Source: an uncultured Dokdonia sp. (GTDB lineage: Bacteria; Bacteroidota; Bacteroidia; Flavobacteriales; Flavobacteriaceae). From it: DNA of 34,793 nucleotides. The stretch lies in NCBI GenBank assembly GCA_913060645.1, contig CAJXSW010000022.1, positions 1 to 34,793 on the forward strand, given 5' to 3'. The translations under genes were made by a program, and so were the position numbers. Below the pieces are notes generated by a model. That model ran no database searches, had not been told where the DNA came from, and was given only the letters and a program-made list of their open reading frames with translations. This document shows positions 10,139-34,598 of this stretch, piece by piece (the stretch's first letter is position 1; each line of letters begins with the position of its first letter).

Positions 10139-10975
10139 TTATTCCTTCTTTAAGATTTTTGAGGTTCCTGTAAAACGTTCTATCGTTAATTTAGGTTCAC
10201 CATATACTTGAAGTTGTGCTTTATCTGCAAGATCTACAACAATCTCCTGATCTGCAGTTACAATTGTTGTCGAATTTCCTGCTCCGATTACGTTGATCAC
10301 ATCTGCATTAAATGTTTGAGCTTTGCACTCAGCATTGTCTTTTAAAGCCAGCGTGACAGTTTGAGCATTTCCTATTAATTCTAGGTCTGATCTTTCAGAT
10401 GCAGATAGCGTGAATTTTTTTGTATTGATATCCGCTTTCGCGAAAGCGTTATCTGTAACATTCATGGTCAAATCATCTCCCATATAATCCATCTCAATTT
10501 TTGAGTTTGAATTTGCAGTTATGGTAGCTTGTGTTGCTTTTACCTCTCCTTCAAACTGACTATCATCTAAAAAACTTCCTCTAAAAAAATCTGATTTAAG
10601 AACAGATTGTGCTTTCACCTTACTCTCTGCATCTAAGCTCACAGAATTAAGAGTCACAAAACGCACCGTGATATCAAGACGTTTTGCACTTCTGATATCC
10701 TTTCTCGCAGAAACTAGCAATACACTATCACGCACATCAAAGCTTATTAATTCAATAAGGTTATCATCCATCTCAAGCTCGTAGCCTGGTTGAGAATCTG
10801 CAATAAGTGTTACTTCTAGACCATCTGTTACTTTAATATCTGTAAATGGACGTAATACCTCAGATACATCTTTCACATTTCTACTTCCTTTCACTCGCTC
10901 TCTTTGAGCGCTTACAGCCGTAGTCACAAACATAAGCACAGCAATAGCTATACCTTTCATATATATTTTTTTCAT
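10139..10975 (-). CDS. DUF2807-type (GIN domain) secreted protein
   Basis: A 278-residue exported protein with a Sec signal peptide (about 1-24, IAVLMFVTTAVSAQ). The LRPFTDIKVTDGLEVTLIAD segment (41-60) matches the entry of DUF2807 domains, followed by repeated short strands with Ser/Asn/Asp turns and no TGSGD motif. It converges on the sigma-factor operon and is a distant relative of its last gene, so the locus has two GIN-type proteins on opposite strands. A copy of the dispersed palindrome (10433-10448) lies inside the gene in frame and encodes AFAKA at 177-181 without breaking the reading frame. There may be an alternative start at the second Met (residue 6). Function is unknown. Confidence 0.78.
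   Translation of the reverse strand: MKKIYMKGIAIAVLMFVTTAVSAQRERVKGSRNVKDVSEVLRPFTDIKVTDGLEVTLIADSQPGYELEMDDNLIELISFDVRDSVLLVSARKDIRSAKRLDITVRFVTLNSVSLDAESKVKAQSVLKSDFFRGSFLDDSQFEGEVKATQATITANSNSKIEMDYMGDDLTMNVTDNAFAKADINTKKFTLSASERSDLELIGNAQTVTLALKDNAECKAQTFNADVINVIGAGNSTTIVTADQEIVVDLADKAQLQVYGEPKLTIERFTGTSKILKKE
10433..10448. repeat. TTTCGCGAAA-family palindrome inside a GIN-domain gene
   Basis: CGCTTTCGCGAAAGCG, a perfect 16-bp palindrome in coding sequence. The frame used gives A-F-A-K-A at residues 177-181. Confidence 0.95.
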
Positions 10976-11020
10976 AGAATTAAATGTACAATAAATGAGC
11001 CATCATTAATAACAACACAT

Positions 11021-11046
11021 AAAAAAAGCATCTGGTTACAGATGCT
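11021..11046 (-). terminator. Intrinsic terminator of the Cys-repeat lipoprotein gene
   Basis: An 8-bp stem, AGCATCTG (11027-11034) with CAGATGCT (11039-11046), loop GTTA. On the minus strand it is followed by seven T. It lies 27 nt past the stop of the gene ending at 11073. Confidence 0.9.
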
Positions 11047-11072
11047 CTTTAAAAATATGTCGTTTATGGATA

Positions 11073-12131
11073 TTAATAGATAATATTAATCATTCCATCT
11101 GCCGTGAGTACTTCTTCGTTATCTGGATTTGTAAATGTTCCAGAAAAAGTTCCTACGATTGTAGTACCATCGTTTGCTGTAATAGAATTTATAAATGGAG
11201 TCGTCGCTTCTATAGATGGTGTGTGCACAACACCTCCTACTGTTAGAATCGTATTTTGCATCACATTATCTCCTGTTTGCTGTAATACGATATCAAAAGT
11301 AAACGTATCTCCTGTATCTATATCTGTTGCAACCACGCTCAGTAAAGATCCGCTTATGGAAACAGTAGCTGTATTAAAATTTGTAAATACTTCTCGCACG
11401 GTTACTTGTACTGGCCCATCTTGTTCTGGTGGAGAGCAATCTCCTAGATCTTGTACAATAGCATTAAGACTTCCATCTGTATCTCCACAAGCGGCTATTT
11501 GAGCTTGTAAAGCCATGGAGTAGTCTGCACAAGCTTCAGTATAACTATCTTCATCAAGAGGATCTAATGCATTAAATATCTCTCGCGCTTCTGATGTCGC
11601 AACCTGCGCTGCAGCACAATCACCACCACAATTCAACGCGTCAATGGTAGCCTGTATATTTCCGCTTGCATCACCACAAGCTTCTATTTGAGTAGATAAA
11701 GCGGCGCTATAAGCAAGGCATAATTGTTCTTCGTTATCACTAGAAGCATTGTTTAAAGCTCCCAAGGCTGAATTTGCAGCAGTCTCCGCTTGAAAACAAG
11801 GATCTGGCGTAGAGCATTCTCCTAAGCTTGTAAGAGTAGCTTGTAATGTTCCGGATGCATCACCACAAAGTTGAATTGTTGCTTGAATTGCAGTCGCATA
11901 TGCACCACAAACTTGTGAGTAATTTGCCTCCGTTGCACTACTAAAAGCCGCCTGTGCTGCTACGAGAGTATCAAAAGCTAATTGGCAAGTTTCACTATCT
12001 GGATCCGGTTCACTTGGATCAGATCCATCACCTGTAACGCTAAACACGCCTTCTAGTGGTTCGTCATCACAAGAGACAACCGTCACTGCAGCCATCAATA
12101 TAAATAAAAATAAAACGTGTAGTTTTTTCAT
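11073..12131 (-). CDS. Lipoprotein with three four-cysteine helical repeats
   Basis: A 352-residue lipoprotein: signal peptide with lipobox VVSC (Cys21), then an acidic Asp/Ser/Pro linker. It is followed by three tandem repeats of about 57-61 residues (49-106, 112-168, 172-232), each with four cysteines in the pattern C-x25(28)-C-x13-C-x15(16)-C. Each repeat is Ala/Gln-rich and helical and contains a CGDASG or CGDTDG turn. The C-terminal part (about 240-352) is Thr/Val-rich and beta-like. Twelve regularly spaced cysteines in an exported protein suggest disulphide-braced helical hairpins. I do not recognise a named family. It stands alone between terminated or convergent units, and a hairpin follows its stop. 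Confidence 0.75.
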   Translation of the reverse strand: MKKLHVLFLFILMAAVTVVSCDDEPLEGVFSVTGDGSDPSEPDPDSETCQLAFDTLVAAQAAFSSATEANYSQVCGAYATAIQATIQLCGDASGTLQATLTSLGECSTPDPCFQAETAANSALGALNNASSDNEEQLCLAYSAALSTQIEACGDASGNIQATIDALNCGGDCAAAQVATSEAREIFNALDPLDEDSYTEACADYSMALQAQIAACGDTDGSLNAIVQDLGDCSPPEQDGPVQVTVREVFTNFNTATVSISGSLLSVVATDIDTGDTFTFDIVLQQTGDNVMQNTILTVGGVVHTPSIEATTPFINSITANDGTTIVGTFSGTFTNPDNEEVLTADGMINIIY

Positions 12132-12197
12132 TGTAGTAGTAATTTCTAAATCTGAAACACAAACATAATCAATTTATTGCACTGTTTTGCTCTTAGA

Positions 12198-12632
12198 CTA
12201 TGAGTCCTTGCGAGCCTTTAACAGGTTGTTCTGCTCTTGCATAAGATGCTCAATGTTTGCAAGCAATTCTATATTTTTCGGAGTTTTTTCTTCTGTATTT
12301 TTAGGATCTTCTGCTTTATCCTTAAATCTATTTATTCCTTTAATCACTACAAAAATGGTAATTGCGATTACCAAAAAATCTATTGAAACCTCAATAAGTT
12401 CTCCATAACCAATTGCTATTTCCTTTTCTTCACCTTCGGCTGCACGCAAGAGGTACTTTCTATCTGCGAGATTAATACCATCTGTGAGTAGTGATAACGG
12501 TGGCATCACAACTTTTTTTACAATAGTGTTCACCACATTATTAAAAGCAGTACCTATAATAATACCTACTGCCATATCGATCATGTTACCCTTGATCGCA
12601 AAATTTTTGAATTCTTGAATAAATCCAGCCAT
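12198..12632 (-). CDS. mscL: Large-conductance mechanosensitive channel MscL
   Basis: A 144-residue inner-membrane channel that opens under membrane tension to release solutes on hypo-osmotic shock. The N-terminal amphipathic helix (FIQEFKNFAIKGN) leads into TM1 (about 16-42), with the pore-lining MIDMAVGIIIGTAFNNVV and the following PPLSLL. The periplasmic loop is short, TM2 is at about 80-100 (IDFLVIAITIFVVIKGIN), and a C-terminal helix bundle ends in LLANIEHLMQEQNNLL. Length and motif order are normal for the family. It stands between the MFS transporter upstream (minus, ending at 12746) and the Cys-repeat lipoprotein gene. I see no terminator directly after it. Confidence 0.96.
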   Translation of the reverse strand: MAGFIQEFKNFAIKGNMIDMAVGIIIGTAFNNVVNTIVKKVVMPPLSLLTDGINLADRKYLLRAAEGEEKEIAIGYGELIEVSIDFLVIAITIFVVIKGINRFKDKAEDPKNTEEKTPKNIELLANIEHLMQEQNNLLKARKDS

Positions 12633-12722
12633 AACTATCTATTGTATGCCGTAGCAACTTAATTATTGAATAATAAACTTTAGCAAAACTCTCTCTAATT
12701 ATAAGATTGGGGATTTGAGTAT

Positions 12723-12744
12723 TTACGCTTTCGCGAAAGCGTAA
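12723..12744. repeat. Perfect 22-bp TTTCGCGAAA-family palindrome
   Basis: TTACGCTTTCG followed by its exact reverse complement. It begins one nucleotide beyond the stop codon of the MFS gene (ending at 12746) and could form a hairpin at its mRNA 3' end. Confidence 0.95.
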
Positions 12745-12745
12745 C

Positions 12746-14062
12746 CTACGTAATTACCGTCCTGTCCTTAGGCACTCGAAGTAATAACACGACACCTGCC
12801 GCAAAAAATAAAATTAAAAACACAATCGAATAGCGCATGCTTCCTGTAAGTTCTTCTATGAAACCGTATAAAAACATACCGATGATGATACCTATTTTCT
12901 CAGCAACATCATAAAAGCTGAAATATGAAGTAGTGTCCTCTGTTTCTGGTAAAAACTTAGCATACGTAGATCGTGATAGCGACTGAATTCCTCCCATTAC
13001 TAAGCCTACAAATGCCGCCGTAATGTAAAACTGAACAGGAGTGTACACGAAGTAGGCCCAAGCGCAGATAAAAATCCAAACAATATTAATGATAATAAGT
13101 GCCTTAAGATTCCCTATTCTAGCCGATAATTTTGAGGTCAAGTAAGCTCCAGCAACGGCGACTAGTTGTATTAATAAAATACTACCTATAAGTCCCGTGG
13201 TACGCTCGCTATCACTTCCCCATTCTAGTTCTTGCTCTCCAAAGTATGCTGCTGCGAGCATTACTGTTTGAACTGCCATACTATATACAAAGAATGCAAT
13301 AAGATATTTTTTGAGTCGTAGCTGTGACTGCATGGATCTCCAGATAGCTCTCAACTCGTTAAAACCATTTAAGAGCACAGCTCCTGTAAGCTTACCGTCT
13401 GCCTCATTACCCTTAGGAAGGTACCTGTAAGTGTACTGACTAAAACCTATCCACCAAACTCCAGTGAGCACAAAAGAAAGCCTCGTTGGAAAACCTTCAT
13501 CTTCAAAGCCAAAAATCTCATACCCCAGAATCATAAACAAACACCAGCCAAGCAATATGACACTCCCTATATATCCCCAAGAATATCCTTTGGCACTTAT
13601 TGCATCGTGCTGATCTGGAAAAGCAATATCTGGTAAGTAGGAGTTGTAAAATACGAGACTACCCCAGAAACCTATAAGTCCTAATGCATATAGAAGCAGA
13701 CTTAAATATATATGCTCTAAGCTGAACCAGTATAGTCCTATGGTCGCTAGCGCTCCCATGTAACAGAAAAACTTAAGAAAGTATTTTTTATTACCTAGAT
13801 AATCTGCCACTCCAGATAGAATAGGAGAAATGATTGCTACTATTAAAAAAGCCACAGCAGTAGTATAAAATATAAGCGGACTGCGACGTAGCATCATTCC
13901 AAAAACTTCAATTTCTTCTATACCGGCTCCTCTAAAGAGAGCTCCATAAAATAATGGAAATATAGCAGATGCAATGACAAGACTGTAGGTGGAGTTTGCC
14001 CAATCATAAAATGCCCATGCATTTAATAATTTTTTATCTCCTTTTTGTAGTTCGTTATTCAT
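12746..14062 (-). CDS. MFS transporter, Atg22/UMF1-like
   Basis: A 438-residue integral membrane protein with about 12 hydrophobic segments. The N-terminal KKLLNAWAFYDWANSTYSLVI, with the conserved YDWANS, is the signature of the UMF1/Atg22-like branch of the major facilitator superfamily. Further matches are the loop SGVADYLGNKKYFL and the second-half segment GGIQSLSRSTYAKFLPE, both typical of this branch. In fungi the family exports amino acids from the vacuole; the bacterial substrate is not established. It starts just downstream of the terminator of the M48 peptidase gene and ends at a perfect palindrome. Confidence 0.9.
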   Translation of the reverse strand: MNNELQKGDKKLLNAWAFYDWANSTYSLVIASAIFPLFYGALFRGAGIEEIEVFGMMLRRSPLIFYTTAVAFLIVAIISPILSGVADYLGNKKYFLKFFCYMGALATIGLYWFSLEHIYLSLLLYALGLIGFWGSLVFYNSYLPDIAFPDQHDAISAKGYSWGYIGSVILLGWCLFMILGYEIFGFEDEGFPTRLSFVLTGVWWIGFSQYTYRYLPKGNEADGKLTGAVLLNGFNELRAIWRSMQSQLRLKKYLIAFFVYSMAVQTVMLAAAYFGEQELEWGSDSERTTGLIGSILLIQLVAVAGAYLTSKLSARIGNLKALIIINIVWIFICAWAYFVYTPVQFYITAAFVGLVMGGIQSLSRSTYAKFLPETEDTTSYFSFYDVAEKIGIIIGMFLYGFIEELTGSMRYSIVFLILFFAAGVVLLLRVPKDRTVIT

Positions 14063-14075
14063 AGTACTAAAATAG

Positions 14076-14101
14076 AAAAGCTGTGCGATTGCACAGCTTT
14101 T
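14076..14101 (-). terminator. Intrinsic terminator of the M48 peptidase gene
   Basis: A perfect 11-bp stem (14076-14086 with 14091-14101, loop GATT) with A/T-rich flanks, 25 nt past the stop at 14127. It closes the transcript coming from the peptidase, and possibly from the glycogen genes upstream. Confidence 0.88.
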
Positions 14102-14126
14102 CTTACTATATATTTCGTGTAAACTT

Positions 14127-14948
14127 CTATTTAAAAGAAGTCACTCCAAATTTTGCGGCTTCTGCTCTCGCCATCGGCGCTTTGGCAGTAAGATTTGCAA
14201 TACGACTATCTGATGATGGGTGCGTACTCATAATCTGTGGTGGTGCTTCACCTCCACTTGCAGCTTTCATACGTTTCCATAACTCTGCAGCTTCATCAGG
14301 ATTGTATCCAGCTATTGCTGCAATTACGATTCCGATTTCGTCTGCTTGTGTCTCATGGCTACGTGAGAAAGGAAGCATCCCTCCTACTTGTGAACCTATA
14401 CCATAGAGTTGCATGATTTGTTGTTGCTTTGCTTGATCTTGACCTCCTACCGCAATAGCAGTGGCAACACCACCATATTGTTGTAATTGTGCAGCACTCA
14501 TACGTTGTGCTCCGTGATCTGCAAGTGCGTGAGCAAGTTCATGCCCCATTACCATTGCTAGTCCAGTTTCTGATTGAGTTATCGGTAAAATTCCAGTGTA
14601 TACTACAATCTTTCCTCCTGGCATACACCAAGCGTTTACTGCTTCATCTTTAACTAGATTGTACTCCCAGCGATAATCTTGTAAATAACCAGGCTCTCCT
14701 AGTGCTGTAAGGTAACGCTCTGCTGCTACGGCTATTTTTTCACCTACGCGCTTTACCATATTAGCATCTGCTGTTCCAGTAATCACATTATTTTCAGATA
14801 GGAATGCGTCATACTGTTGGAATGCCATTGGAAATAACTGATCGTTACTTACAAAGTTAAGGGTCTTCTTACCTGTAAACGGGCTTGTCTTACATGCACA
14901 CACAAGGAGTACGGTCATGATAAGAACAAATGTATTTTTAAGTTTCAT
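14127..14948 (-). CDS. M48 family metallopeptidase lipoprotein
   Basis: A 273-residue zinc protease with a type II signal peptide (lipobox VCAC, Cys19). The catalytic HExxH is H136-E137-L-A-H140, and the third zinc ligand is E199 in SHETQAD, as in M48 Oma1/BepA/LoiP-like proteins. The AWCMPGGKIVVYTGIL stretch before the active site and the STHPSSDSRI segment near the C-terminus are also typical. It probably acts in the periplasm on misfolded envelope proteins, although substrates are not readable from sequence. It begins 39 nt downstream of the GH31 gene on the same strand and could be read through from it. A terminator follows. Confidence 0.92.
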   Translation of the reverse strand: MKLKNTFVLIMTVLLVCACKTSPFTGKKTLNFVSNDQLFPMAFQQYDAFLSENNVITGTADANMVKRVGEKIAVAAERYLTALGEPGYLQDYRWEYNLVKDEAVNAWCMPGGKIVVYTGILPITQSETGLAMVMGHELAHALADHGAQRMSAAQLQQYGGVATAIAVGGQDQAKQQQIMQLYGIGSQVGGMLPFSRSHETQADEIGIVIAAIAGYNPDEAAELWKRMKAASGGEAPPQIMSTHPSSDSRIANLTAKAPMARAEAAKFGVTSFK

Positions 14949-14987
14949 AATGATGGTTTTTAATCAGGATATAAAAATACGCAAATG

Positions 14988-20909: not shown

Positions 20910-22337
20910 TTATTTTTTGATAGTTACTTTTTTTGGTATCATTTCTTCATATAATGAAGCGTAAGTTCCAGCTGCATTTTCCCAGCTGTGGTCTATCTCC
21001 ATCATTTGTTTTTGATTTGCACTAAAGGCTTTCTTATCCTTATAAAAAAGAGAAGCACGTTCTATACTGTATACAACATCCCATACAGAAGTTTGATCAT
21101 GACAAATACCATTACCGCCATCACCTATGTCTACTACTGTATCTTTTAAACCACCCGTACGGCGTACAATAGGCATACAACCATATCTCAAGCTATACAA
21201 CTGATTTAAACCACAAGGCTCAACCCTACTAGGCATTAAAAGAAAATCTGCTCCAGCATATACTTGATGTGACATCCTTTCTTCATAACCTATATGAGCA
21301 TTATATCTTCCTTTATAAGTGGTTTTAAGTTCCTCTAGCTGGCGTTCCACTTCTGGCGAGCCGCTTCCTAGTAAAATGATATTAATATCGTGTTGCTTTA
21401 ACACAGTATCGATAATCTCAGGCAGTAAATCTGCTCCTTTTTCCCAAACAAGTCTACCTATAAACCCAAAGAGTGGTTTTGAGGCGTCTAGTCCAAACTC
21501 ATCACAAATAGCCTTTTTATTAGCCTCACGGCCTTTAGCCCTCGTTCTTATTGAATAATTTTTAATAAGATAATTATCGGTGGCAGGATTCCATGTTTCG
21601 GCATCAATACCGTTTAGAATTCCCACGCACTTTAATTTCTCTTCTCTAAGCAAGCCTTCTAATCCATTTGCTTTTTCTTGTAATTCCATCATATATGATG
21701 GAGAAACGGTATTCACTCGCCATGCACATTTAATAGCAGCAGCAAGTGGATTTATATCACCGTACCAATCTAGGAGTCCTAGATCGCTTTCGCGAAAGCG
21801 TGGTAACATTCCTACCATATCGTGAGGAAAATTACCTTGGTACTGCGCATTATGAATTGAAAGTAACGTAGGCACCTTCATGAGACTATCAAACTCTGGG
21901 CAATGCTGCATCATAAAGGGTATAAAACCAGTATGGTGATCATGACAATGAATAATGTCTAACTTTCTCTTTAAACTCAGCACCCACTGCAGCGCTACTC
22001 GCTGAAAAGCAACAAAGCGCAAAGAATCGTCCTCATACCCATATACATTTTTTCTATCTGTGAGTTCTGTAATCCTAACCACAAATAATGGAAAACCAAG
22101 CTCATTATCTACATCAATCACTTCGCTGAAATACGTCTTACCTTCAATCACTAAGTCATGACAAAAAACAATGGTGCCATTTGCATGTTCCACCCAGCTT
22201 GTTTTATAGTACGGCATAATCACCGCAGCAGTATGACCTATGCGGTTTTGATATTTAGGAAGAGCTCCAACCACATCTGCCAGCCCACCCACTTTTGCAA
22301 CAGGATAACACTCGGCACTTACGTGAAGAATATTCAT
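20910..22337 (-). CDS. glgA: Glycogen synthase, ADP-glucose dependent (GT5)
   Basis: Starch/glycogen synthase of 475 residues (GT-B fold), extending alpha-1,4-glucan from ADP-glucose. The N-terminal KVGGLADVVGALPK (about 15-28) binds ADP-glucose. LSIHNAQYQGNFP, the GFIGRLVWEKGADLL linker and the C-terminal MPSRVEPCGLNQLYSLRYG with its conserved Glu are family marks. It is the first gene of glgA-glgC-glgB, and its promoter lies in the divergent region with msrB, which contains a 15-bp inverted repeat. A perfect copy of the dispersed palindrome (21785-21800) is embedded in the coding sequence and read as R-F-R-E-S at residues 180-184, in the GMLPRFRESDLGL loop. Confidence 0.96.
   Translation of the reverse strand: MNILHVSAECYPVAKVGGLADVVGALPKYQNRIGHTAAVIMPYYKTSWVEHANGTIVFCHDLVIEGKTYFSEVIDVDNELGFPLFVVRITELTDRKNVYGYEDDSLRFVAFQRVALQWVLSLKRKLDIIHCHDHHTGFIPFMMQHCPEFDSLMKVPTLLSIHNAQYQGNFPHDMVGMLPRFRESDLGLLDWYGDINPLAAAIKCAWRVNTVSPSYMMELQEKANGLEGLLREEKLKCVGILNGIDAETWNPATDNYLIKNYSIRTRAKGREANKKAICDEFGLDASKPLFGFIGRLVWEKGADLLPEIIDTVLKQHDINIILLGSGSPEVERQLEELKTTYKGRYNAHIGYEERMSHQVYAGADFLLMPSRVEPCGLNQLYSLRYGCMPIVRRTGGLKDTVVDIGDGGNGICHDQTSVWDVVYSIERASLFYKDKKAFSANQKQMMEIDHSWENAAGTYASLYEEMIPKKVTIKK
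21785..21800. repeat. TTTCGCGAAA-family palindrome inside glgA
   Basis: A perfect 16-bp CGCTTTCGCGAAAGCG within glgA. The frame used gives RFRES, different from the AFAKA reading in the GIN-domain gene and menC, so the DNA rather than the peptide is what is shared. Confidence 0.95.
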
Positions 22338-23520: not shown

Positions 23521-23534
23521 CTTTCGCGAAAGCG
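23521..23534. repeat. TTTCGCGAAA-family palindrome after msrB
   Basis: CTTTCGCGAAAGCG, 17 nt past the stop of the second msrB and just upstream of the intrinsic terminator at 23548-23575. Confidence 0.92.
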
Positions 23535-25020: not shown

Positions 25021-25050
25021 GAGCTATACTTTATACATATAAAGTTTTTA

Positions 25051-25077: not shown

Positions 25078-25133
25078 TGTTTTATAACCTCTCAAAATAG
25101 TTAGCTTTACTACCGGCCCTTAACAGTTGTATT

Positions 25134-26423: not shown

Positions 26424-26452
26424 CCGCTGAATGAAGAGGATTAAAATCTCTT

Positions 26453-26875: not shown

Positions 26876-26894
26876 AGATTATAGTTGTTGAGTA

Positions 26895-26909
26895 CGCTTT
26901 CGCGAGTGC
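26895..26909. repeat. Degenerate TTTCGCGAAA-family palindrome upstream of aroQ
   Basis: CGCTTTCGCGAGTGC: the left arm and centre match the family, and the right arm is decayed. It lies between the beta-barrel terminator and the aroQ start. Confidence 0.65.
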
Positions 26910-26937
26910 ATAAAAATACAGATTTACAAGGCGTAAA

Positions 26938-26963
26938 AAAAGCGCCTCTACTGAGGCGCTTTT
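26938..26963 (-). terminator. Intrinsic terminator of the beta-barrel gene
   Basis: A perfect 11-bp stem, core GCGCCTC/GAGGCGC (26938-26948 with 26953-26963), loop TACT. On the minus strand it runs into seven T. Confidence 0.92.
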
Positions 26964-26985
26964 GATAATTCTTTTTACTTATGAT

Positions 26986-27594: not shown

Positions 27595-27619
27595 GTTTGT
27601 GTTTGTTTTAAATGATGTC

Positions 27620-27627
27620 CAAAGCTA
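27620..27627 (-). promoter_or_regulatory. Candidate -7 box of the beta-barrel gene
   Basis: On the minus strand this reads TAGCTTTG, an exact match to TAnnTTTG, 25 nt before the ATG at 27594. The -33 element is not obvious. Confidence 0.5.
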
Positions 27628-27703
27628 TCCATCATCGTGTTAAATGCATGTTAAGCACTTTCTAAACTCTTGTTAATTGAGAATCCTTTAATAATTGTAT
27701 TTT

Positions 27704-27716
27704 CACTTTCGTGAAA
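27704..27716. repeat. TTTCACGAAAGTG variant containing the xerD start codon
   Basis: CACTTTCGTGAAA is the exact reverse complement of 7032-7044. The GTG start of xerD (27711) lies inside this near-palindrome, so a hairpin or bound protein could affect its translation. Confidence 0.45.
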
Positions 27717-28613
27717 TGGGAAACAGGCATATTAAATTATAAAAGTTACTTACGCATAGAACGTGGTCTCTCTGAGAACACTATAGACAACTATGCTCGA
27801 GACTTAAAAAAACTAACCCGCCATCTAGAGCAATTAGATAGTGCGCCAGATCCTATTACTATAACTAAGGATGATATTCAAGACTTTATATACACCATAG
27901 CCAAAGAAGTACAAGCCAGATCACAGGCTCGTATTATCTCTGGGCTTAAAGGCTTTTTCAATTATCTGATATTTGAAGATTATAGAAAAGATAATCCTCT
28001 AGACCTTATTGAATCTCCTCGCCTAGGAAGAAAACTACCAGACACACTCGCCGAAGAAGAAATAGACGCTCTTATCACGGCAATTAACCTCTCTACTCCT
28101 CAGGGAGAACGCAATCGTGCTATGCTCGAGACACTCTATTCTTGCGGTCTGCGTGTAACAGAATTAATAAGCTTAAAGCTTTCTGACTTATATTTTGAGG
28201 AAGGGTTTATAAATGTAATAGGTAAGGGAGACAAACAGCGCTTTGTACCCATAAGTGAGCATACTCAAAAATACATCGACATTTACCGTAATGAAATACG
28301 AACGCATATAGACGTCAAGCCAGAGCATGTAGATATTTTATTTTTGAATAGAAGAGGTCGCCAGCTCACACGCGCCATGATTTTTACAATCATAAAAGAT
28401 CTCGCAGTAAAAGCTGGAATTAAGAAAAGTATTAGTCCGCATACGTTTCGTCACAGCTTTGCCACACACCTTTTACAAAATGGCGCCGATTTGAGAAGTA
28501 TTCAGCAAATGCTAGGTCACGAGAGCATTACAACTACCGAAATCTATATGCATGTAGATCGCAGTGACCTCGCTCGAGTGATGGAGCAATATCACCCTAG
28601 AAAGAACTACTAG
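27711..28613 (+). CDS. xerD: Site-specific tyrosine recombinase XerD
   Basis: A 300-residue tyrosine recombinase that resolves chromosome dimers at dif with a partner recombinase. The N-terminal SAM-like DNA-binding domain is at about 1-90 (LRIERGLSENTIDNYARDL). The catalytic domain has Arg148 (CGLRVTEL), Lys172 (GKGDKQR), His244 and Arg247 (PHTFRHSFATHLL), His270 (LGHESI) and nucleophile Tyr279 (TEIYMHV), at the numbering I remember for E. coli XerD. The start is GTG at 27711, with no better ATG upstream of the DNA-binding domain. It is divergent from the beta-barrel gene and converges with the M24 peptidase gene. Xer is a housekeeping call; nothing suggests an integron or mobile element here. 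Confidence 0.93.
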   Translation: MKWETGILNYKSYLRIERGLSENTIDNYARDLKKLTRHLEQLDSAPDPITITKDDIQDFIYTIAKEVQARSQARIISGLKGFFNYLIFEDYRKDNPLDLIESPRLGRKLPDTLAEEEIDALITAINLSTPQGERNRAMLETLYSCGLRVTELISLKLSDLYFEEGFINVIGKGDKQRFVPISEHTQKYIDIYRNEIRTHIDVKPEHVDILFLNRRGRQLTRAMIFTIIKDLAVKAGIKKSISPHTFRHSFATHLLQNGADLRSIQQMLGHESITTTEIYMHVDRSDLARVMEQYHPRKNY

Positions 28614-28626
28614 GGTTTTCTTTCAA

Positions 28627-28641
28627 TTTTTCGCGAAAGCG
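28627..28641. repeat. TTTCGCGAAA-family palindrome between convergent genes
   Basis: TTTTTCGCGAAAGCG, 13 nt past the xerD stop and 9 nt before the stop of the convergent M24 peptidase gene. It is the only strong symmetry in this 37-bp gap, so it may serve as the 3' end signal for both. Confidence 0.9.
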
Positions 28642-28650
28642 GACTTGTAA

Positions 28651-29961
28651 TTACTTCACAATAAGTATTTCTTCTTGCCTTCCTGAAACATATCTAAAGC
28701 CATCTTCACCCCAAAATCCTGCTTCCTCAAGCATAATTCTAATGTCCTTATTCCACTCTGGAATGGTTACGGTAGTATTGAGTTCAATAGCGTATGCTGT
28801 GTTCTCATAAAGCTTGTAGTCTCCTGTACCTGGCACACCACCTTGAGAGTCCCACATTCCAATCGTTGGCCCAGCGGCATGACCGTATAGTCCAAGTGGA
28901 TGCGTATAGATAGAAGGCATAAGACCTTCTGCTCTAGTCTCCTTTAATGATTTTAATAGAATCTCATTTCCAGTTCTACCTGTCTTAAAATTTGAAGCAA
29001 GTACATCTTGCACGCGGTTACCGTCTGCAAATGCTTTACTCAAGAACGCTGGCAGTTCCTTCTCGTCATCCTTTAAAACATATGCGTGCTGCTGGCAATC
29101 TGTATTAAGACGTAGGTAAGTAATTCCAAAATCACAGTGCAACAAGTCACCCTTCTGGATTACTTTTCCTTCTGGTCTATTAGAAAATGAAACAATATGA
29201 CTCTCTAGCTTTTCTTCAGATCGTTGAATATCAACCGTAGGGTGAAACCATGTTTCTAATCCAATATCTGTAACTCGCTGGCGTAAATACCACACCACAT
29301 CATCTGTAGTTGTAACTCCTGGAACAATCACTTTATAGCTGAAGGCATCCTTAATAATATCATGCGTCACATCTACTAGCTGTTCAAAATATTTCATTTC
29401 AAGCGCCGTGCGTGTTTCTAACCATCCCACTGCAAGATTCTGTGCAGAGACTACTTTTGATTGCTGAGTAGGTGATAGTTTTGATATAAAAGCCTCATAA
29501 TCTGTCTTTACAATTCCGTCTGCAAGTCCAAAATCATCAGAATAATTAAGTCCAATTTTTGAAGGGTTGCGCTCTTCTATAATCTCTAGAAGACGTGCCC
29601 ATTGATCGGGTTGTTTTTCTTTATCCCAAGCAGAGATGATATTCTTCCCTACGTTATATCTAGCTACTGCTAGCTTTTCAATAGTATTCTTTTCTTTATT
29701 TCTGTAGAAAACTAAAATAGTTCTCCTTCTCGCATTAAGCCACGTAGAAGGAAGCATTGTTTTTATAACAGGATCTTCATTATATTCTCTAGAAATCACA
29801 ACCCACATATCAATATCAGTGCGGTCCATTAATGTAGGTAGTAAATTATCAAATCTATCTGCTAAGACCTCATCAATTACATCCGCTCTATCGCGTTCTG
29901 TTAAGATTTGACCATTAATGCATGCAAACGGAAGTAGTAAAAGTAATAGTAATGTTTTCAT
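28651..29961 (-). CDS. M24 family metallopeptidase (Xaa-Pro aminopeptidase-like), exported
   Basis: A 436-residue peptidase of the pita-bread fold. The frame extends 12 codons further upstream, but the ATG at 29961 gives a clean signal peptide (KTLLLLLLLPFACINGQ) and is preferred. The N-terminal creatinase-like domain (DMWVVISREYNEDP) precedes the M24 domain with expected metal ligands: two Asp in LLHCDFGITYLRLNTDCQQ, His in HPLGLYGHAAGP, Glu in AIELNTTV and Glu near IMLEEAGFW. Secretion to the periplasm suggests peptide scavenging or envelope peptide turnover. It converges with xerD over a 37-bp gap containing a palindrome. Specificity for proline is assumed from the family. Confidence 0.88.
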   Translation of the reverse strand: MKTLLLLLLLPFACINGQILTERDRADVIDEVLADRFDNLLPTLMDRTDIDMWVVISREYNEDPVIKTMLPSTWLNARRRTILVFYRNKEKNTIEKLAVARYNVGKNIISAWDKEKQPDQWARLLEIIEERNPSKIGLNYSDDFGLADGIVKTDYEAFISKLSPTQQSKVVSAQNLAVGWLETRTALEMKYFEQLVDVTHDIIKDAFSYKVIVPGVTTTDDVVWYLRQRVTDIGLETWFHPTVDIQRSEEKLESHIVSFSNRPEGKVIQKGDLLHCDFGITYLRLNTDCQQHAYVLKDDEKELPAFLSKAFADGNRVQDVLASNFKTGRTGNEILLKSLKETRAEGLMPSIYTHPLGLYGHAAGPTIGMWDSQGGVPGTGDYKLYENTAYAIELNTTVTIPEWNKDIRIMLEEAGFWGEDGFRYVSGRQEEILIVK

Positions 29962-29995
29962 AGTTAAGTTGCTAGTCCTTAAAAATACTAAAAAC

Positions 29996-30025
29996 AAAAA
30001 AGAGTATTCATCTGAACACTCTTTT
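29996..30025 (-). terminator. Intrinsic terminator of the Lys-rich exported protein gene
   Basis: An 8-bp stem with one mismatch (30002-30009 with 30014-30021, loop ATCT). On the minus strand it is followed by six T, 28 nt past the stop at 30054. Confidence 0.8.
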
Positions 30026-30053
30026 CTTAATTATAAATTGATGTAAGACTATT

Positions 30054-30542
30054 TTACCTGTCACCTTTATTTCTACGCTTTTTCTTGCGTTCCTTTTTCT
30101 TTTCTTTTTCTACTTTCTTATCAGTTCGTCCTGACTCTTCCTCTGCTATGATCTTCACCACTTGTTCCTCGGTGAGAATATCTCTTAATTGAGATTCAAA
30201 TTTCTTTTTTTCTAATTCCGCTTTTTTGCGCTTATCATCAATAACCATGTCCTGATCATCTTGGATTGCCAATAATACAGTATAGTAATCTTTTAAATAA
30301 CTTCTAAGCACCTCTTTACCAAAAACGTCTAGTTCAAACATTTCCTGGTATACGCTTGATCGCTCTAAACTTAACACATTAGGGTCTGGTTTCTCATTAT
30401 AAGATGCTGCTACTCCTGGTGTGGAAGGAACTAAGCGCCTGCCTCTACCACTAAAGTCAGTCCCATTTTGACCTCCAAATCCTTGAGCTTCAACACTCAC
30501 TAGACACAACAACATCACTACCACTAAAAAATATCTCATCAT
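30054..30542 (-). CDS. Hypothetical exported protein, Lys/Glu-rich tail
   Basis: A 162-residue protein with a Sec signal peptide (about 1-19, FLVVVMLLCLVSVEAQ) and a Gly/Arg-rich start (GFGGQNGTDFSGRGRR). A helical central part follows, containing DILTEEQVVKI, a phrase reminiscent of the LTxxQ motif of Spy/CpxP-like periplasmic proteins. The C-terminal 25 residues are almost only Lys, Glu and Arg (VEKEKKKERKKKRRNK). I cannot assign a function; a periplasmic helical or chaperone-like protein is one possibility. It lies between the VWA-like gene and the M24 peptidase, both on the same strand, and is closed by a terminator. Confidence 0.65.
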   Translation of the reverse strand: MMRYFLVVVMLLCLVSVEAQGFGGQNGTDFSGRGRRLVPSTPGVAASYNEKPDPNVLSLERSSVYQEMFELDVFGKEVLRSYLKDYYTVLLAIQDDQDMVIDDKRKKAELEKKKFESQLRDILTEEQVVKIIAEEESGRTDKKVEKEKKKERKKKRRNKGDR

Positions 30543-30615
30543 CTTATCTATCTATTTTTGCAAATATGCATAATTATTTCGTGAATACTCATATTCAATA
30601 ATGATGCCCAAATCT

Positions 30616-31317
30616 TTAATCCTTAATTACATCAAGTATTTCTGGCAATAAAGTGAGTGCAGTTAAAGCAATCGCTCCGCCTAAATTTTTATGATCTGTA
30701 GCTCTTGATTGTTTGCGCTGTTCTCTTTCTTGTCTTCTTTTATCCCGACTAGAAACTCCTATTCCTTGGTATAATGACGTGCTACTAGCTCGACTTTTAA
30801 TATCGTTGGCGCTGGCCATTAACTCTTGAGCATCTTCAATAACATCAATACCGGCACCTCGTATCATGATCACACTACTCAATTTTTTCTCATAATAATG
30901 TGCCTCCATCATATCATACGCTATAGAAATTCCCGAGGAAGTCATCGCCATAAACTCACCCTTAAACAAACTCTCTACAGACTCTCGCAATACTGCCGCT
31001 TTGCTTACTTCTGTAAAGGGAAGAATATTTGCACTTATCGCTCCATAGGTTCCTATCGCTATCATATCATTATCATCAAGCCTTTTAATGAGTAGCTTTA
31101 TTCCTTGCTCTATATAAAATTTATCTTCGGGAGAGATTCCTGCTTTTCCCGTCTCTACCAGGATATAGAGTTGCTGGGCATCTTCGCTTGGGAAGTTTTC
31201 GGCAGCATAGGTGATGAGATGTTCTGCTTTAATTACTACAGATTTGGTCTCAATTTCATTTTGACTAGGTAGTTGGAATGCAATAAATAATAGGGCAAGT
31301 GTGAAGATGCTTTTCAT
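30616..31317 (-). CDS. Exported VWA-like protein with degenerate metal site
   Basis: A 233-residue protein with a Sec signal peptide (about 1-18, LALLFIAFQLPSQ). From 49 to about 160 the strand/helix order matches a von Willebrand factor A domain: first strand QLYILVETG, helix IEQGIKLLIKRLDDND, strand MIAIGTYG, then a Ser/Thr loop (MAMTSSGISIAYDMM) and strand SSVIMIRGAG. The usual MIDAS DxSxS is replaced by E55-T-G57-K-A59, and the TDG after the later strand by RGA, so metal binding looks lost. A basic stretch (RDKRRQEREQRKQSR, about 191-205) and a hydrophobic C-terminus (GGAIALTALTLLPEIL) follow. VWA assignment is my structural inference; function is unknown. Confidence 0.55.
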   Translation of the reverse strand: MKSIFTLALLFIAFQLPSQNEIETKSVVIKAEHLITYAAENFPSEDAQQLYILVETGKAGISPEDKFYIEQGIKLLIKRLDDNDMIAIGTYGAISANILPFTEVSKAAVLRESVESLFKGEFMAMTSSGISIAYDMMEAHYYEKKLSSVIMIRGAGIDVIEDAQELMASANDIKSRASSTSLYQGIGVSSRDKRRQEREQRKQSRATDHKNLGGAIALTALTLLPEILDVIKD

Positions 31318-31425
31318 AGGTCATACATTTTAAATGAATTGTAAACCTATAGCCTATATGATCTCATTTCCAGTTAGAATGAGCAAAAGCCTAGTACCAA
31401 TGAGTGAAGTAATATAAGATGATTA

Positions 31426-31447
31426 TTACGCTTTCGCGAAAGCGTAA
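31426..31447. repeat. Perfect 22-bp TTTCGCGAAA-family palindrome
   Basis: Identical over 22 bp to 12723-12744 (TTACGCTTTCG plus its mirror). It lies 8 nt past the menE stop codon and is the only hairpin-capable sequence I see at that 3' end. Confidence 0.95.
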
Positions 31448-31455
31448 CTTCAACT

Positions 31456-32550
31456 CTATAAATTGTTTAAATACTCTTTTAAGGTTTGCCCTCTCTGTAT
31501 TTTACCTGTAGCCGTACGCTGAAAGGAGGTTAATGAAACCGCAAGTTTAGGTAGTTCAAAAGACCCAAAAGCCGATATATCTGTAATATGCTCCTTTATA
31601 AAAAGAGGTTCTTCTTGCTCTACAAATAACGTTAATCGCTCGCCAAGCAGTTCATGTGGAACTCCGGCTACAAAATATGGAACATGGATAAATGGCGCCA
31701 ACTTTGCCTCTATCTGTTCTGGAAACAATTTTACTCCACCGCTATTAATTACATTATCAATGCGACCTAGCCAGATGAACTTCTTATACGTTATGAGCTC
31801 TACAAGATCATTTGTAATCACGGGATCCGTGCTCACCTTAGGAGCTTTTATTACAAGACAATCCCTATTATCGATTTCGACTGTAACTTTGTCAAGTACT
31901 TTAAAAGGGATGATTCCTTCTTTATTTTTTTTTGGATTGACTCTTCTTGCTGCAATGTGAGTTACAGTTTCTGTCATTCCATAGGTTTCATAAACCTTGG
32001 TTTTAAGTCCTTGTAATCTTAATGACAGTGCTGGTGATATCGCTCCTCCTCCTACAATAAGCTTTGAAAGTAAGTGTAATCGCGATAAGGAATTATCAAG
32101 CTGAAAAGGCGTCATCGCACAAAAGTCATACGTTCTATAAACAGCATCCAGCGGGTTTGATTTTGGCTGCGCCATATCAATACGCCATCCTAATGTCATT
32201 GCTCTTACAAGCATCATTTTTCCAGCAATGTAATGTGCAGGAAGACAAAGCAATGCCGTTGTTTTTTCAAATACATCAAAGTGCTTTGCAGTTGCTTTTG
32301 CACTATTGATCATATGCTCTTTGTTTATCTTAATAGGCTTAGGTGTTCCCGTAGACCCAGATGTATGTACCGTCACATACTTCTTAGCATCTAGCCACTC
32401 TATAATAAACTCACCTACAGATTCCTCATAAGGTTCACCTTCTTTAATAAAGGTATGCGCTTGCTCCTTTAATGAAGCAATGGTAAATGAAGCACCATTA
32501 AGTTTAAATTTAGGGTGTAAGCGCGTGTATTTTTCAGCAAGCTCCGTCAT
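31456..32550 (-). CDS. menE: o-Succinylbenzoate-CoA ligase (AMP-forming)
   Basis: Acyl-adenylate-forming enzyme activating o-succinylbenzoate to its CoA ester in menaquinone synthesis. The 364-residue protein shows VHTSGSTGTPKPIKI (about 60-74, ATP-binding P-loop), YETYGMTET (A5), the WLGRIDNVINSGG hinge (A8) and the A10 lysine in TATGKIQRG. It is shorter than MenE of Firmicutes or enterobacteria because the N-terminal region before the P-loop is reduced, a form I have seen in Bacteroidota and consider normal. Assignment to MenE rather than a generic acyl-CoA synthetase rests on menC two genes upstream on the same strand. It ends 8 nt before a perfect palindrome. Confidence 0.88.
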   Translation of the reverse strand: MTELAEKYTRLHPKFKLNGASFTIASLKEQAHTFIKEGEPYEESVGEFIIEWLDAKKYVTVHTSGSTGTPKPIKINKEHMINSAKATAKHFDVFEKTTALLCLPAHYIAGKMMLVRAMTLGWRIDMAQPKSNPLDAVYRTYDFCAMTPFQLDNSLSRLHLLSKLIVGGGAISPALSLRLQGLKTKVYETYGMTETVTHIAARRVNPKKNKEGIIPFKVLDKVTVEIDNRDCLVIKAPKVSTDPVITNDLVELITYKKFIWLGRIDNVINSGGVKLFPEQIEAKLAPFIHVPYFVAGVPHELLGERLTLFVEQEEPLFIKEHITDISAFGSFELPKLAVSLTSFQRTATGKIQRGQTLKEYLNNL

Positions 32551-32621
32551 ATCATTTAAATATACGGGTTCCTTGTAAGATTAATATTAAGCAAATGTAA
32601 AATGTAAGTCTGCTCAACTAT

Positions 32622-33560
32622 TTAAGCGCCAGCAAGAGGCTTTACACTTCCTGTGAGTTTCTGTTTCCAGTTAGACCATTTATATTTTCTAGCAAAAATA
32701 TACATGAGAATAGGTAGTATAATAAATATAGGAACAATCTGCCCTATAGCCGAAGGCTCTGCCACATCACGAAAGATAGAATTAGTTTGTAATGCACTCC
32801 AATCTGAAGTTACGAGCAGTGCAATAAACATATTATTTGCCGCATGAAAGCCTAGAGCAAGCTCCATTCCATCATCCATAAGCGTTATAATCCCGAGAAA
32901 GAAACCTAAACCTATGTAGACCGATAGTATGCTGTATCCAAGCTTTTCTATTTCAGGATTAAGCGCGTGCATGAGTCCAAAAATAAGTGAAGTAATAATA
33001 AGAGGCACGAGCTTATTACCAGCAGCAACTCCTATCCCCTGCATTAAATATCCTCTAAAAAGAAATTCCTCAAAAGAAGTTTGTAAGGGTAGTAGTATTA
33101 ATGTGATGGCTAGAAGCCCTAGAAAAGGCATAAGATTAAAATTCCACACAAGATCTTCTGGAGCAAAATAGTATGCTACAAGTGTGGATACTATAGAAAA
33201 CGCACCCCAAATAGCAAAAGCAAAGAAAAAACGAGACCAATCTATTTTTTTTCTAGCGGTTACTAGCTTTGTAAATCGCTGCTTATGTAGATACTTAACA
33301 ACAACAACGAGTCCAAGTAAACCCCCTAAAAAGGTGCAAAGTGCAAGTACTAAGTAAAAATTACTTTCCCCTTCAAAAAGCGGAAAAAAATTCTCTTCTC
33401 CTGCTTCTAGAAAAGTATTTATATCACCAGCTCTCATCCACGAGCCTACCATTAATGGAATTGCTCCTAAAATTTGCCAGCCTAAAATAAATATAATCAA
33501 GAAACCTATTATATACCTCCAACCCTCATATAAACTCTTATACGCCTGCTCAATATACAT
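32622..33560 (-). CDS. CPBP family intramembrane glutamic endopeptidase-like protein
   Basis: A 312-residue polytopic membrane protein with about eight helices. The three CPBP (Rce1/Abi) motifs are present: EEFLFRGYL (EExxxR), FGLMHALNP (FxxxH) and GFHAANNMF (HxxxN). The proteolytic glutamate and histidines all appear intact. The family includes prenyl-protein proteases and many bacterial proteins of unknown substrate. It lies between menC (3 nt upstream, likely coupled) and menE on the same strand, so it is co-expressed with quinone-precursor enzymes. Whether it has any link to the isoprenoid tail or is just a passenger cannot be told from this window. Confidence 0.9.
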   Translation of the reverse strand: MYIEQAYKSLYEGWRYIIGFLIIFILGWQILGAIPLMVGSWMRAGDINTFLEAGEENFFPLFEGESNFYLVLALCTFLGGLLGLVVVVKYLHKQRFTKLVTARKKIDWSRFFFAFAIWGAFSIVSTLVAYYFAPEDLVWNFNLMPFLGLLAITLILLPLQTSFEEFLFRGYLMQGIGVAAGNKLVPLIITSLIFGLMHALNPEIEKLGYSILSVYIGLGFFLGIITLMDDGMELALGFHAANNMFIALLVTSDWSALQTNSIFRDVAEPSAIGQIVPIFIILPILMYIFARKYKWSNWKQKLTGSVKPLAGA

Positions 33561-33563
33561 ATG

Positions 33564-34598
33564 TTATAATTTAAAATTCCAGTGCTTATTATTATCCGTT
33601 CTTAAAGTTCCATTCACTACTTCTAGTGGTGAAGATATATTATTTGTAAAAAGGCTCCCCGTACCTAGTCCTTGAGGCCCTTTTGCTCCTAATTCATGGG
33701 TCCATTGTGCGATAGCATTAAGACCAATATTACTTTCTAATGCAGAGGTTATCCACCATGCAATCCCTAATGAATCTGCTACGTCAATCCACTCTTGACT
33801 TCCTTTAAAACCTCCAATAAAGCTAGGCTTTAAAATAATATATTGTGGTTTTATAGTTTCAAGCAGCTTGCGTTTTGAAGGGAGATCTGTCACTCCTATA
33901 AGTTCTTCATCTAGCGCTATTGGTGTAGGTGTACTCGCACATAATGATGCCATTGCCTCCCACTGTTTTGTAGCAATGGGTTGTTCTATAGAGTGAATAT
34001 CTAGCTCGGCTAGTTGGAATAGGACTTCTTTTGCTTTCGCGAAAGCAAAACCACCATTTGCATCTACCCGCAAGGTAAGCTGCTCATTATTGTAACTCTT
34101 TCTTATAGAGGATAGAATCGCCATTTCGTCTTTAAAGTCAATGGCTCCTATCTTCATTTTTATACAATCAAAACCTTGCTCAAGCTTTTCTGCTACCTGC
34201 GCTCTCATAAAATCTTCATCTCCCATCCATATCAAGCCATTGATTTCTATAGCAGAGGTTCCTTCTGTAAAGGTAGATGGAAATAAAACATAGGGATGAT
34301 TAGATTTAAGTGATAAAAACGCCATCTCAATACCCGCTTGTATACTTGGATAGGCTATTAGTTGTTCCCAAAGAGCTTGAGGTCCTTTAGTTATATTACT
34401 ACATGCCCATTCCAGCTTCTGCTCATAATCTGGCACATCATCATAACTAAGGCCTCTAAGGATTCCACATTCTCCTACACCCATCTTCCCATTATCATCA
34501 ATGATAATATACCACGTCTCTTTTGTACGTAAGACACCTCGTGAAGTACCGCTGGGGCTCTTGAACTCTAATATGTGCTTTTTATAATGTGCTTTCAA
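33564..34598 (-). CDS. menC: o-Succinylbenzoate synthase
   Basis: Enolase-superfamily enzyme (344 residues) that dehydrates SHCHC to o-succinylbenzoate in menaquinone synthesis. Catalytic KxK is K147/K149 (CIKMKIG), metal ligands are D179 (RVDANGG), E205 (SIEQP) and D230 (ALDEE), and the opposing lysine is K257 (IILKPSFIGG). The N-terminal capping part FKSPSGTSRGVLRTKETWYIII is typical of the OSBS branch in Bacteroidota. The start is a TTG at 34598: a TAG lies seven codons upstream and no ATG is available, and the family N-terminus begins here. A perfect palindrome (34029-34050) is embedded right after D179-A-N-G-G and reads FAFAKAK (184-190). It heads menC-CPBP-menE. Confidence 0.93.
   Translation of the reverse strand: MKAHYKKHILEFKSPSGTSRGVLRTKETWYIIIDDNGKMGVGECGILRGLSYDDVPDYEQKLEWACSNITKGPQALWEQLIAYPSIQAGIEMAFLSLKSNHPYVLFPSTFTEGTSAIEINGLIWMGDEDFMRAQVAEKLEQGFDCIKMKIGAIDFKDEMAILSSIRKSYNNEQLTLRVDANGGFAFAKAKEVLFQLAELDIHSIEQPIATKQWEAMASLCASTPTPIALDEELIGVTDLPSKRKLLETIKPQYIILKPSFIGGFKGSQEWIDVADSLGIAWWITSALESNIGLNAIAQWTHELGAKGPQGLGTGSLFTNNISSPLEVVNGTLRTDNNKHWNFKL
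34029..34050. repeat. TTTCGCGAAA-family palindrome inside menC
   Basis: A perfect 22-bp palindrome (TTTTGCTTTCG plus its mirror) within menC, four residues past metal ligand Asp179. Flanks are TTTT/AAAA instead of TTAC/GTAA, which preserves the reading frame as FAFAKAK. Confidence 0.95.

Follow-up and report, generated by a model that had tools for sequence, protein, structure and literature searches.

A palindromic DNA word iterated at even spacing in the genomes of Dokdonia and a few other Flavobacteriaceae

A perfect palindrome of 14–22 bp forms a lineage-specific, genome-wide family of DNA sites that is limited to a few genera. Its core, TTTCGCGAAA, occurs 932 times in the 3.11 Mb Dokdonia genome that includes the window (the whole 34.8-kb stretch of DNA that was analysed), compared with 10 occurrences of a reversed control. 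The dispersed palindrome family of the original prediction is thus real and was understated; the outcomes named as speaking against it (a near-chance count, random placement, lack of conservation) did not occur. The repeat unit approximates TTACGCTTTCGCGAAAGCGTAA with AT-rich flanks, the common 16-bp word is CGCTTTCGCGAAAGCG, and the copies share no longer unit. With ∼900 near-identical, evenly placed sites per genome that are kept between species, the palindrome illustrates constraint on a genome-wide word with unusual clarity. No earlier description of the family was found in the non-subscription literature searched, and papers that contain the word do not, judging by their titles, concern a bacterial repeat.

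Copies in the window and across the genome

All seven predicted perfect cores were recovered in the window (at 10436, 12729, 21788, 23522, 28629, 31432 and 34035), together with three degenerate forms (4297, 6934 and 26895; Table 1); the identity of two intergenic copies over 22 bp and the distances to stop codons were also as claimed. When up to one mismatch to the core was allowed, 14 matches were found against 1.06 expected, with a maximum of 4 in 100 shuffles. The claim that copies cluster at gene 3′ ends held in part: the bias in gaps between co-directional genes of this genome is real, but three of the seven perfect copies are intragenic (10436 in a DUF2807 gene, 21788 in glgA, and 34035 in an enolase-superfamily gene that, adjoining menE, is by position probably menC). 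The copies at 4297, 23522, 26895 and 28629 each have a separate terminator, a stem-loop with a T-run, discernible alongside.

Table 1. Palindrome copies in the window, with their surroundings and the state of the equivalent place in relatives.
Copy	Position	Strand	Context	Further observations
Perfect 16-bp copy, CGCTTTCGCGAAAGCG	10433..10448		Within DUF2807 gene 10139-10975 (-)	
Perfect 22-bp copy, TTACGCTTTCGCGAAAGCGTAA	12723..12744		Directly past stop of ATG22/MFS transporter gene 12746-14062 (-)	
Perfect copy	21785..21800		Within glgA 20910-22337 (-)	Core at same place in Dokdonia 3-709 (L039)
Perfect copy	23521..23534		17 nt past stop of SelR/msrB-type gene (gene end 23503, +)	Followed by separate stem-loop and T-run; L039 lacks copy at equivalent place
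Perfect core	28627..28641		Between convergent xerD (27711-28613, +) and M24 peptidase gene (28651-29997, -)	Separate terminator upstream; L039 and L041 also have copy past xerD
Perfect 22-bp copy	31426..31447		Past stop of menE, gene 31456-32550 (-)	Present in L039 despite differing flanks
Perfect copy in 22-bp palindrome TTTTGCTTTCGCGAAAGCAAAA	34029..34050		Within enolase-superfamily (probably menC) gene 33564-34598 (-)	Unrelated sequence at equivalent place in L039
One-mismatch core, TTTCGCAAAA	4297..4306	+	Past stop of lon, gene 4323-6794 (-)	GCTTTCGCAAAAATTTGA in common with copy at 6934
One-mismatch core, TTTCGCAAAA	6934..6943	+	Upstream of lon	GCTTTCGCAAAAATTTGA in common with copy at 4297
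Degenerate copy, CGCTTTCGCGAGTGC	26895..26909	+	Between dehydroquinase II and outer-membrane beta-barrel genes	Perfect core in this gap in L039, L042, L043 and L044

Placement relative to genes was assessed with a home-made gene caller on a 595-kb sample of the Dokdonia genome that included the window (∼19% of the genome). About half of the copies (84/182) were coding, as were 65/79 in the carrier genome G190. Coding copies in the Dokdonia genome occupied all three reading frames and imposed peptides such as AFAKA, LSRKR and RFRES. Intergenic enrichment was tenfold; convergent gaps were the densest class (21 copies, 2.9 per kb), and divergent gaps held 18 copies. Within co-directional gaps, 22/54 copies lay ≤20 nt from a stop codon, compared with 9.5 ± 2.5 under random placement in the same gaps. 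This 3′-end bias in the Dokdonia genome is real but secondary, and it was not significant in the smaller samples (5/14 in other Dokdonia, P = 0.06; 3/8 in g11 and Nonlabens; 1/8 in G190).

Spacing in the Dokdonia genome was far more even than chance (CV 0.60 vs 0.95 ± 0.06), with 11 pairs of copies <1 kb apart where 46 ± 5 were expected, and 4–9 copies per 20 kb (variance/mean 0.30). Four other sets deviated in the same direction. A skew by chromosomal position, which the original prediction had raised, was not seen with distance from the parS-marked origin over 24 stretches of one genome, G190 (rho −0.07, P = 0.75). Among Dokdonia genomes ≥93% complete, density was lower in larger ones (rho −0.64, P = 0.02), and therefore not all DNA is equally covered.

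Constraint, conservation and carriers

The Dokdonia word accounted for 136 of the 203 perfect 14-bp palindromes in the 595-kb sample, where 1/36 two-mismatch sites was a compensatory palindrome. Because other palindromes do not substitute for the word, its sequence rather than a hairpin is what is kept. Copy number drops steeply from perfect to one-mismatch forms, and mismatches within the core were scarce in Dokdonia and g11/Nonlabens (6/228 sites); G190, the third carrier, keeps the word less faithfully (24/89). Outside the palindrome, the inner word TCGCGA showed no clear enrichment in the Dokdonia genome (46 vs 38.6) and stood at 104 vs 107 in G190 and 13 vs 11 in g11/Nonlabens; the half-word GCTTTCGC stood at 15 vs 7.5 in the Dokdonia genome.

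Conservation between relatives was borne out, with the perfect 12-mer kept in 26/40 aligned site-species pairs within Dokdonia despite diverging flanks, from which 1.2 would be expected. The 14 pairs without a perfect word in the partner comprised 11 with BLAST gaps near the site and 3 that were gap-free. Copy L018:9059 lies opposite unrelated sequence in the Dokdonia genome with no alignment gap, and the menC-like copy is gap-free against L039 in MAFFT, with gaps placed there by BLAST. Islands in other genera had core mismatches at 9/43 sites, compared with 6/228 in Dokdonia and g11/Nonlabens (P = 7e-5), although any island copies that share descent do not count as independent; islands (13 to 34) and the Dokdonia genome (42 to 143) had similar ratios of one-mismatch to perfect 12-mers. 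As a test of decay outside the host this gives a mixed result: the islands look decayed in the core, yet the whole-12-mer ratio is alike and G190 is equally loose.

The 12-mer was present in 383–937 copies in 18/18 Dokdonia genomes searched, and hundreds of copies were found in only 5/299 and 6/397 Flavobacteriaceae genomes in two samplings. In a XerD tree, Dokdonia, Nonlabens and g11 grouped together (support 86/86, not starred) with G190 unplaced, a topology compatible with a single origin of the trait as well as with two. Two Nonlabens phages had no copy of the word and no TCGCGA at all in 71,352 bp, where ∼15 copies are expected at g11/Nonlabens density; with every TCGCGA missing, avoidance is an alternative account of the missing word. 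The word may act as a tracer of DNA once resident in carrier hosts. Named cultured carriers, including Dokdonia sinensis, Dokdonia pacifica and Nonlabens ulvanivorans, exist, and a putative reader protein could therefore be retrievable with one oligonucleotide.

Candidate proteins and possible roles

Protein families were compared using five carriers (G242, G190, G000, G206 and G010). A single ParB_N match was found in four of them and two in G000, one of which is partial; two non-carriers also had two. The DNA-binding region of the carrier ParB was unremarkable. The sequence of the parS site is TGTTNCACGTGNAACA, and this pattern occurred 0–2 times per carrier genome against hundreds of copies of the palindrome, canonical parS being found separately in 4/5 carriers. 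With no extra ParB paralog in the carriers and parS separate and few, the suggestion of a ParB/parS partitioning site was not upheld, and a Noc reading was rejected as well, carriers having no extra ParB/Noc paralog; both site count and half-site spacing also differ. The suggested methylation site was examined for C5 methylation, the one part tested: the C5 methyltransferase family PF00145 was present in G000, G206 and G010 and gave no match in G242 and G190, for which a C5-methylation word is rejected. The pilus/secretion ATPase PF00437 exceeded the cut-off in 1/5 carriers (G242) and 3/16 non-carriers, and pilus-type DNA uptake thus fits poorly, with the note that G000, among the four carriers without a match, is 89% complete.

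The best explanation we can offer, held tentatively and at a shade under an even chance, is that the copies are sites of a putative dimeric chromosome-organising protein. A homodimeric, sequence-specific protein would bind the palindrome and form local complexes or loops roughly every 3–4 kb, organising the chromosome; a second site less than ∼1 kb away would add little because the first would already serve that stretch. The original prediction of a dimeric DNA-binding protein site or a HIP1-like palindrome fits the count, the even spacing, the conservation, and the finding that sequence, not palindromy, is constrained. We infer both the reading of the palindrome by a dimeric protein and its chromosome-organising job from the excess over the control, the even spacing, the dominance of the word among 14-bp palindromes, its retention in 26/40 pairs, the scarcity of core mismatches, the peptides imposed by coding copies, and the absence of an origin trend in G190. 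Counted against a chromosome organiser are the poor fit of ParB/Noc-type proteins, which among readers of comparable palindromes are the most familiar; the looseness of G190, with most of its copies coding; the fall in density with genome size; and the reports that uptake sequences, too, are evenly spaced and have far fewer one-mismatch than perfect copies. A more specific version, which we consider rather doubtful, is a chromosome-scale ruler, in which the putative dimeric protein would need one 14–22 bp palindrome per ∼3–4 kb in a few flavobacterial genera, giving ∼900 sites, with short protein stretches rewritten and second sites within ∼1 kb redundant. If true, such a ruler would amount to a sequence-encoded, regularly spaced chromosome scaffold.

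A DNA uptake signal, in which the palindrome would mark self DNA and biased uptake with recombination would spread and repair copies as in DUS/USS systems, is an unlikely alternative. The density, genic copies, even spacing and perfect-to-one-mismatch drop are all known for uptake sequences (PMC1939737), with Karlin cited there for even spacing; the AT-rich flanks also fit, and Riemerella columbina, of the same family, is competent and favours its own DNA according to PMC7965970. PMC1939737 (Bakkali 2007) describes known uptake sequences, however, as not palindromic and as less evenly spaced than compacting sequences should be, and the PF00437 result also stands against uptake, although it bears on the pilus type only.

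We regard as improbable, too, a HIP1-like, repair, recombination (Chi-like) or self-marking word kept by a methylation, repair, recombination or nuclease-protection system. Like HIP1, the palindrome is highly iterated with few variants, and the two phages could lack TCGCGA because they avoid a site that would be cut or read. Against this, no clear excess of the inner words exists beyond the palindrome itself, PF00145 has no match in G242 and G190, and methylases and Chi usually involve less than the constrained length of at least 14 bp. A transcription terminator or an mRNA 3′-end stabilising hairpin, the role to which the original prediction gave first mention, would account for the excess close to stop codons and for the density of convergent gaps; as the main role we reject it and consider it very unlikely, given that about half of the copies are coding, 18 lie in divergent gaps, sequence rather than pairing is constrained, separate terminators stand beside copies, and TTTT follows within 12 nt of only 1/44 3′-end copies in the Dokdonia genome (0/7 in other Dokdonia, 1/11 in g11/Nonlabens, 0/2 in G190). 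Hardly credible is a mobile REP-like repeat spread by insertion. High copy number and intergenic enrichment would suit it, and insertion or deletion is possible at the 11/14 lost pairs with BLAST gaps, but L018:9059 is gap-free against unrelated sequence, the menC-like copy is gap-free in MAFFT, and all three frames are used with even spacing and no longer common unit; insertion is an unlikely origin of the copies. Whichever answer applies (scaffold, uptake signal, or repair or self mark), it would make directly testable why some genomes keep highly iterated palindromes.

Comparison with known systems

The sites of ParB/parS and Noc/NBS are palindromes built of TTTC and GAAA half-sites and read by dimers, and the Dokdonia word is likewise a palindrome with TTTC/GAAA half-sites, though the spacing of its half-sites differs. 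For Noc, PMC4331003 gives 1–2 kb as coverable per site, which is the scale of the spacing gap between Dokdonia copies, and ∼70 sites in all, compared with ∼900 Dokdonia copies. REP/BIME elements resemble the family as short palindromic repeats that are denser between genes; the Dokdonia word differs in being about half genic, evenly spaced and without a longer repeat unit.

HIP1 is likewise a palindrome that recurs very often, both within genes and between them, and orphan methyltransferases have been proposed for it in cyanobacteria (PMC4390886, in which Flavobacter- or Bacteroid- terms are not mentioned). The HIP1 word, GCGATCGC, belongs to cyanobacteria, whereas the Dokdonia word, CGCTTTCGCGAAAGCG, belongs to another phylum, has a longer constrained unit (14–22 bp) and is carried by G242 and G190 without a match to the C5 methyltransferase family. 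The DUS/USS of Neisseriaceae and Pasteurellaceae share with it hundreds to thousands of genic and intergenic copies, reported even spacing and a steep one-mismatch drop; they differ in that known uptake words are not palindromic (PMC1939737), and PF00437 is absent from 4/5 carriers of the Dokdonia word. Finally, as in a family of nucleoid-protein sites, the Dokdonia sites are evenly spread, with a variance/mean of 0.30 per 20 kb.

Copy number and taxonomic range of the palindrome

All seven perfect copies of the 10-mer core, TTTCGCGAAA, that had been noted in the window were confirmed, and 14 matches with at most one mismatch were found there against 1.06 expected. The enrichment extended to the whole assembly of this genome (G000; 3.11 Mb, 219 contigs, the window being contig C22), with 932 copies of the 10-mer compared to 10 of a reversed control, 727 of the 12-mer and 503 of the 16-mer CGCTTTCGCGAAAGCG. 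The consensus of aligned copies was approximately TTACGCTTTCGCGAAAGCGTAA; the outer flanks in Dokdonia and in g11 (a genus grouped here with Nonlabens as one set) were AT-rich with a C-poor 5' side, and position -9 was mixed in g11. In a 595-kb sample of G000, 136 of 203 perfect 14-bp palindromes were the one under study. Another, CCTCTTCGAAGAGG, occurred three times in the same sample.

The 12-mer was found at 383–937 copies in 18/18 Dokdonia genomes searched. Among 299 family genomes it reached hundreds of copies (445–917) in five, the carriers (G000, G206 of the same genus, G010, G242 and G190), the next highest count being 21; for the 14-mer, 6 of 397 family genomes had 408–857 copies and the next highest had 19. 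Of 392 genomes sampled from the phylum, none but G000 had more than 2 copies of the 16-mer. A set of 73 named loci from other genera, totaling 1,359 kb, contained no 12-mer, and a palindrome-rich Nonlabens ulvanivorans locus had 5 copies in 20.9 kb. The six closest relatives of XerD among the matches listed were all Dokdonia, which assigns G000 to this genus, and the XerD tree placed Dokdonia, Nonlabens and g11 together (86/86), with G190 unplaced; the genome search found no second genome from the genus of G190.

Placement, spacing and conservation

Using a home-made gene caller, 84 of 182 copies in the G000 sample were assigned as coding (0.16 per kb, vs 1.57 per kb between genes), as were 16/27 in G206, 10/22 in other Dokdonia, 18/39 in g11/Nonlabens and 65/79 in G190. 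Coding copies in G000 used all three frames (45, 22, 17); encoded peptides include AFAKA, LSRKR and RFRES. Of the intergenic copies, 54 lay in tandem, 21 in convergent and 18 in divergent gaps. The original prediction of clustering at gene 3' ends does not extend to three of the seven perfect window copies, which are intragenic (one in a gene for a DUF2807 protein, one in glgA and one in the enolase-superfamily gene adjoining menE), and holds as a placement bias in this genome: 22 of 54 tandem-gap copies lay ≤20 nt from a stop codon vs 9.5 expected, with no significant bias in three smaller sets.

Spacing was compared with 1000 random placements in which every stretch retained its own number of coding and of intergenic copies. 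The coefficient of variation (CV) was 0.60 in G000 vs 0.95±0.06 in draws (lowest 0.77), 0.45 vs 0.88 in g11/Nonlabens (lowest 0.52) and 0.58 vs 0.84 in G190 (lowest 0.61); pairs <1 kb apart numbered 11 vs 46±5, 0 vs 6.8, and 3 vs 10.2, respectively. D. sinensis (0.56 vs 0.89) and other Dokdonia (0.61 vs 0.97) deviated in the same direction, within the range of draws. The ori/ter skew considered earlier was not seen in G190, where density had no trend by distance from the parS-marked origin. Across 13 Dokdonia genomes at least 93% complete, copy number had no clear relation to genome size (rho 0.43, P=0.14) and density decreased with it (rho -0.64, P=0.02).

Within Dokdonia, the perfect 12-mer was kept in 26 of 40 aligned site-species pairs (non-independent, as sites and species are shared) vs 1.2 expected, with flanks 71% identical. 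The other 14 pairs comprised three matching 11/12, nine matching 3–8/12 and two unscorable; alignment gaps lay nearby in 11 and three were gap-free. One gap-free site (L018) indicates that copies can be made or broken by substitution. Counting only sites that retain the outer C and G, core mismatches occurred at 6/190 sites in Dokdonia, 0/38 in g11/Nonlabens and 24/89 in G190; G190 is thus looser, or more burdened with look-alikes.

Coordinates of individual sites and stretches
Feature	Location	Observation
One-mismatch copies flanking lon	window 4294-4311, 6931-6949	18 letters, GCTTTCGCAAAAATTTGA, in common; no further occurrence in Dokdonia samples
Copies beside terminators	window 4297, 23522, 26895, 28629	distinct terminators visible alongside
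Gap-free site	L018:9059	copy opposite unrelated sequence of equal length
G076 stretch	C3:32332-110017	78 kb; all 19 copies of that genome
Short ParB-like frame (L251)	G000 C53:18677-18955	second such frame, 176 aa

Copies outside the carriers

Some motif-poor genomes had 4–21 copies each, scattered in G144 (13) and G042 (11) and confined to one stretch in G076. Ten proteins scanned in the latter include a CusA-like efflux protein, an outer-membrane efflux protein, two P-type ATPases and a multicopper oxidase. Stretches from G078, G215, G101, G087 and G012 match portions of this G076 region at 74–81% (G101 vs G215, 93–95%), and a copy pair 933 bp apart recurred in five genomes. Loci L182-L195 (from these six genomes and G287) carry metal-efflux and copper/zinc-type ATPase genes with the palindrome at carrier-like density; they are probably metal-resistance islands derived from carrier hosts. 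Excluding near-duplicate G287 islands, core mismatches affected 9/43 island sites vs 6/228 in Dokdonia plus g11/Nonlabens (P=7e-5), five of the nine being C-to-T or G-to-A; for the full 12-mer, the difference between islands and carriers was small.

Nonlabens phages P12024L and P12024S (L196, L197) had no palindrome copies in 71 kb and no TCGCGA (about 35.7 kb each), which may reflect avoidance of a restriction-like site. The exact 18-mer was found in three contigs of a viral collection. Two of these, L180 and L181, have three copies each, with spacing mirrored between them, a G+C of 0.47 and base composition resembling G190.

Candidate readers and functions

Candidate families were compared between the five carriers and 16 non-carriers. 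ParB had one full copy per genome, with an extra partial match in G000 and long extra matches in two non-carriers; alignment of its DNA-binding region revealed no carrier-specific change, and canonical parS numbered 0–2 per carrier genome. C5 methyltransferase had no match in G242 or G190. A pilus/secretion ATPase scored above cut-off in 1/5 carriers and 3/16 non-carriers. Noc was excluded as the reader of the palindrome.

Compensatory palindromes were few among two-mismatch sites (1/36 in G000, 0/39 in the other four sets); therefore the sequence is kept rather than hairpin-forming ability. Such constraint on a perfect 14–22 bp palindrome suggests a symmetric dimer as putative reader, and the even spacing, in which neighbors <1 kb apart are few, suggests a role for each site in the DNA around it. 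That the copies are terminators is very improbable given this constraint and the near absence of T-runs at 3'-end copies in G000 (1/44), and a mobile repeat is less probable still. A HIP1-like, repair or self mark is unlikely, to the same degree as a DNA uptake signal; the small remainder falls to some other explanation.

As discussed in PMC1939737, Karlin read the even distribution of uptake sequences as indicating compaction or repair, and Bakkali described these sequences as insufficiently even and non-palindromic. The word studied here forms a palindrome and is very evenly spaced, and the pilus ATPase is missing from most of its carriers; on these grounds we tentatively favor, at somewhat below even probability, sites of a putative chromosome organizer. 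According to PMC4331003, Noc molecules suffice to cover 1–2 kb per site, the same scale as the gap in palindrome spacing, where few pairs lie <1 kb apart.
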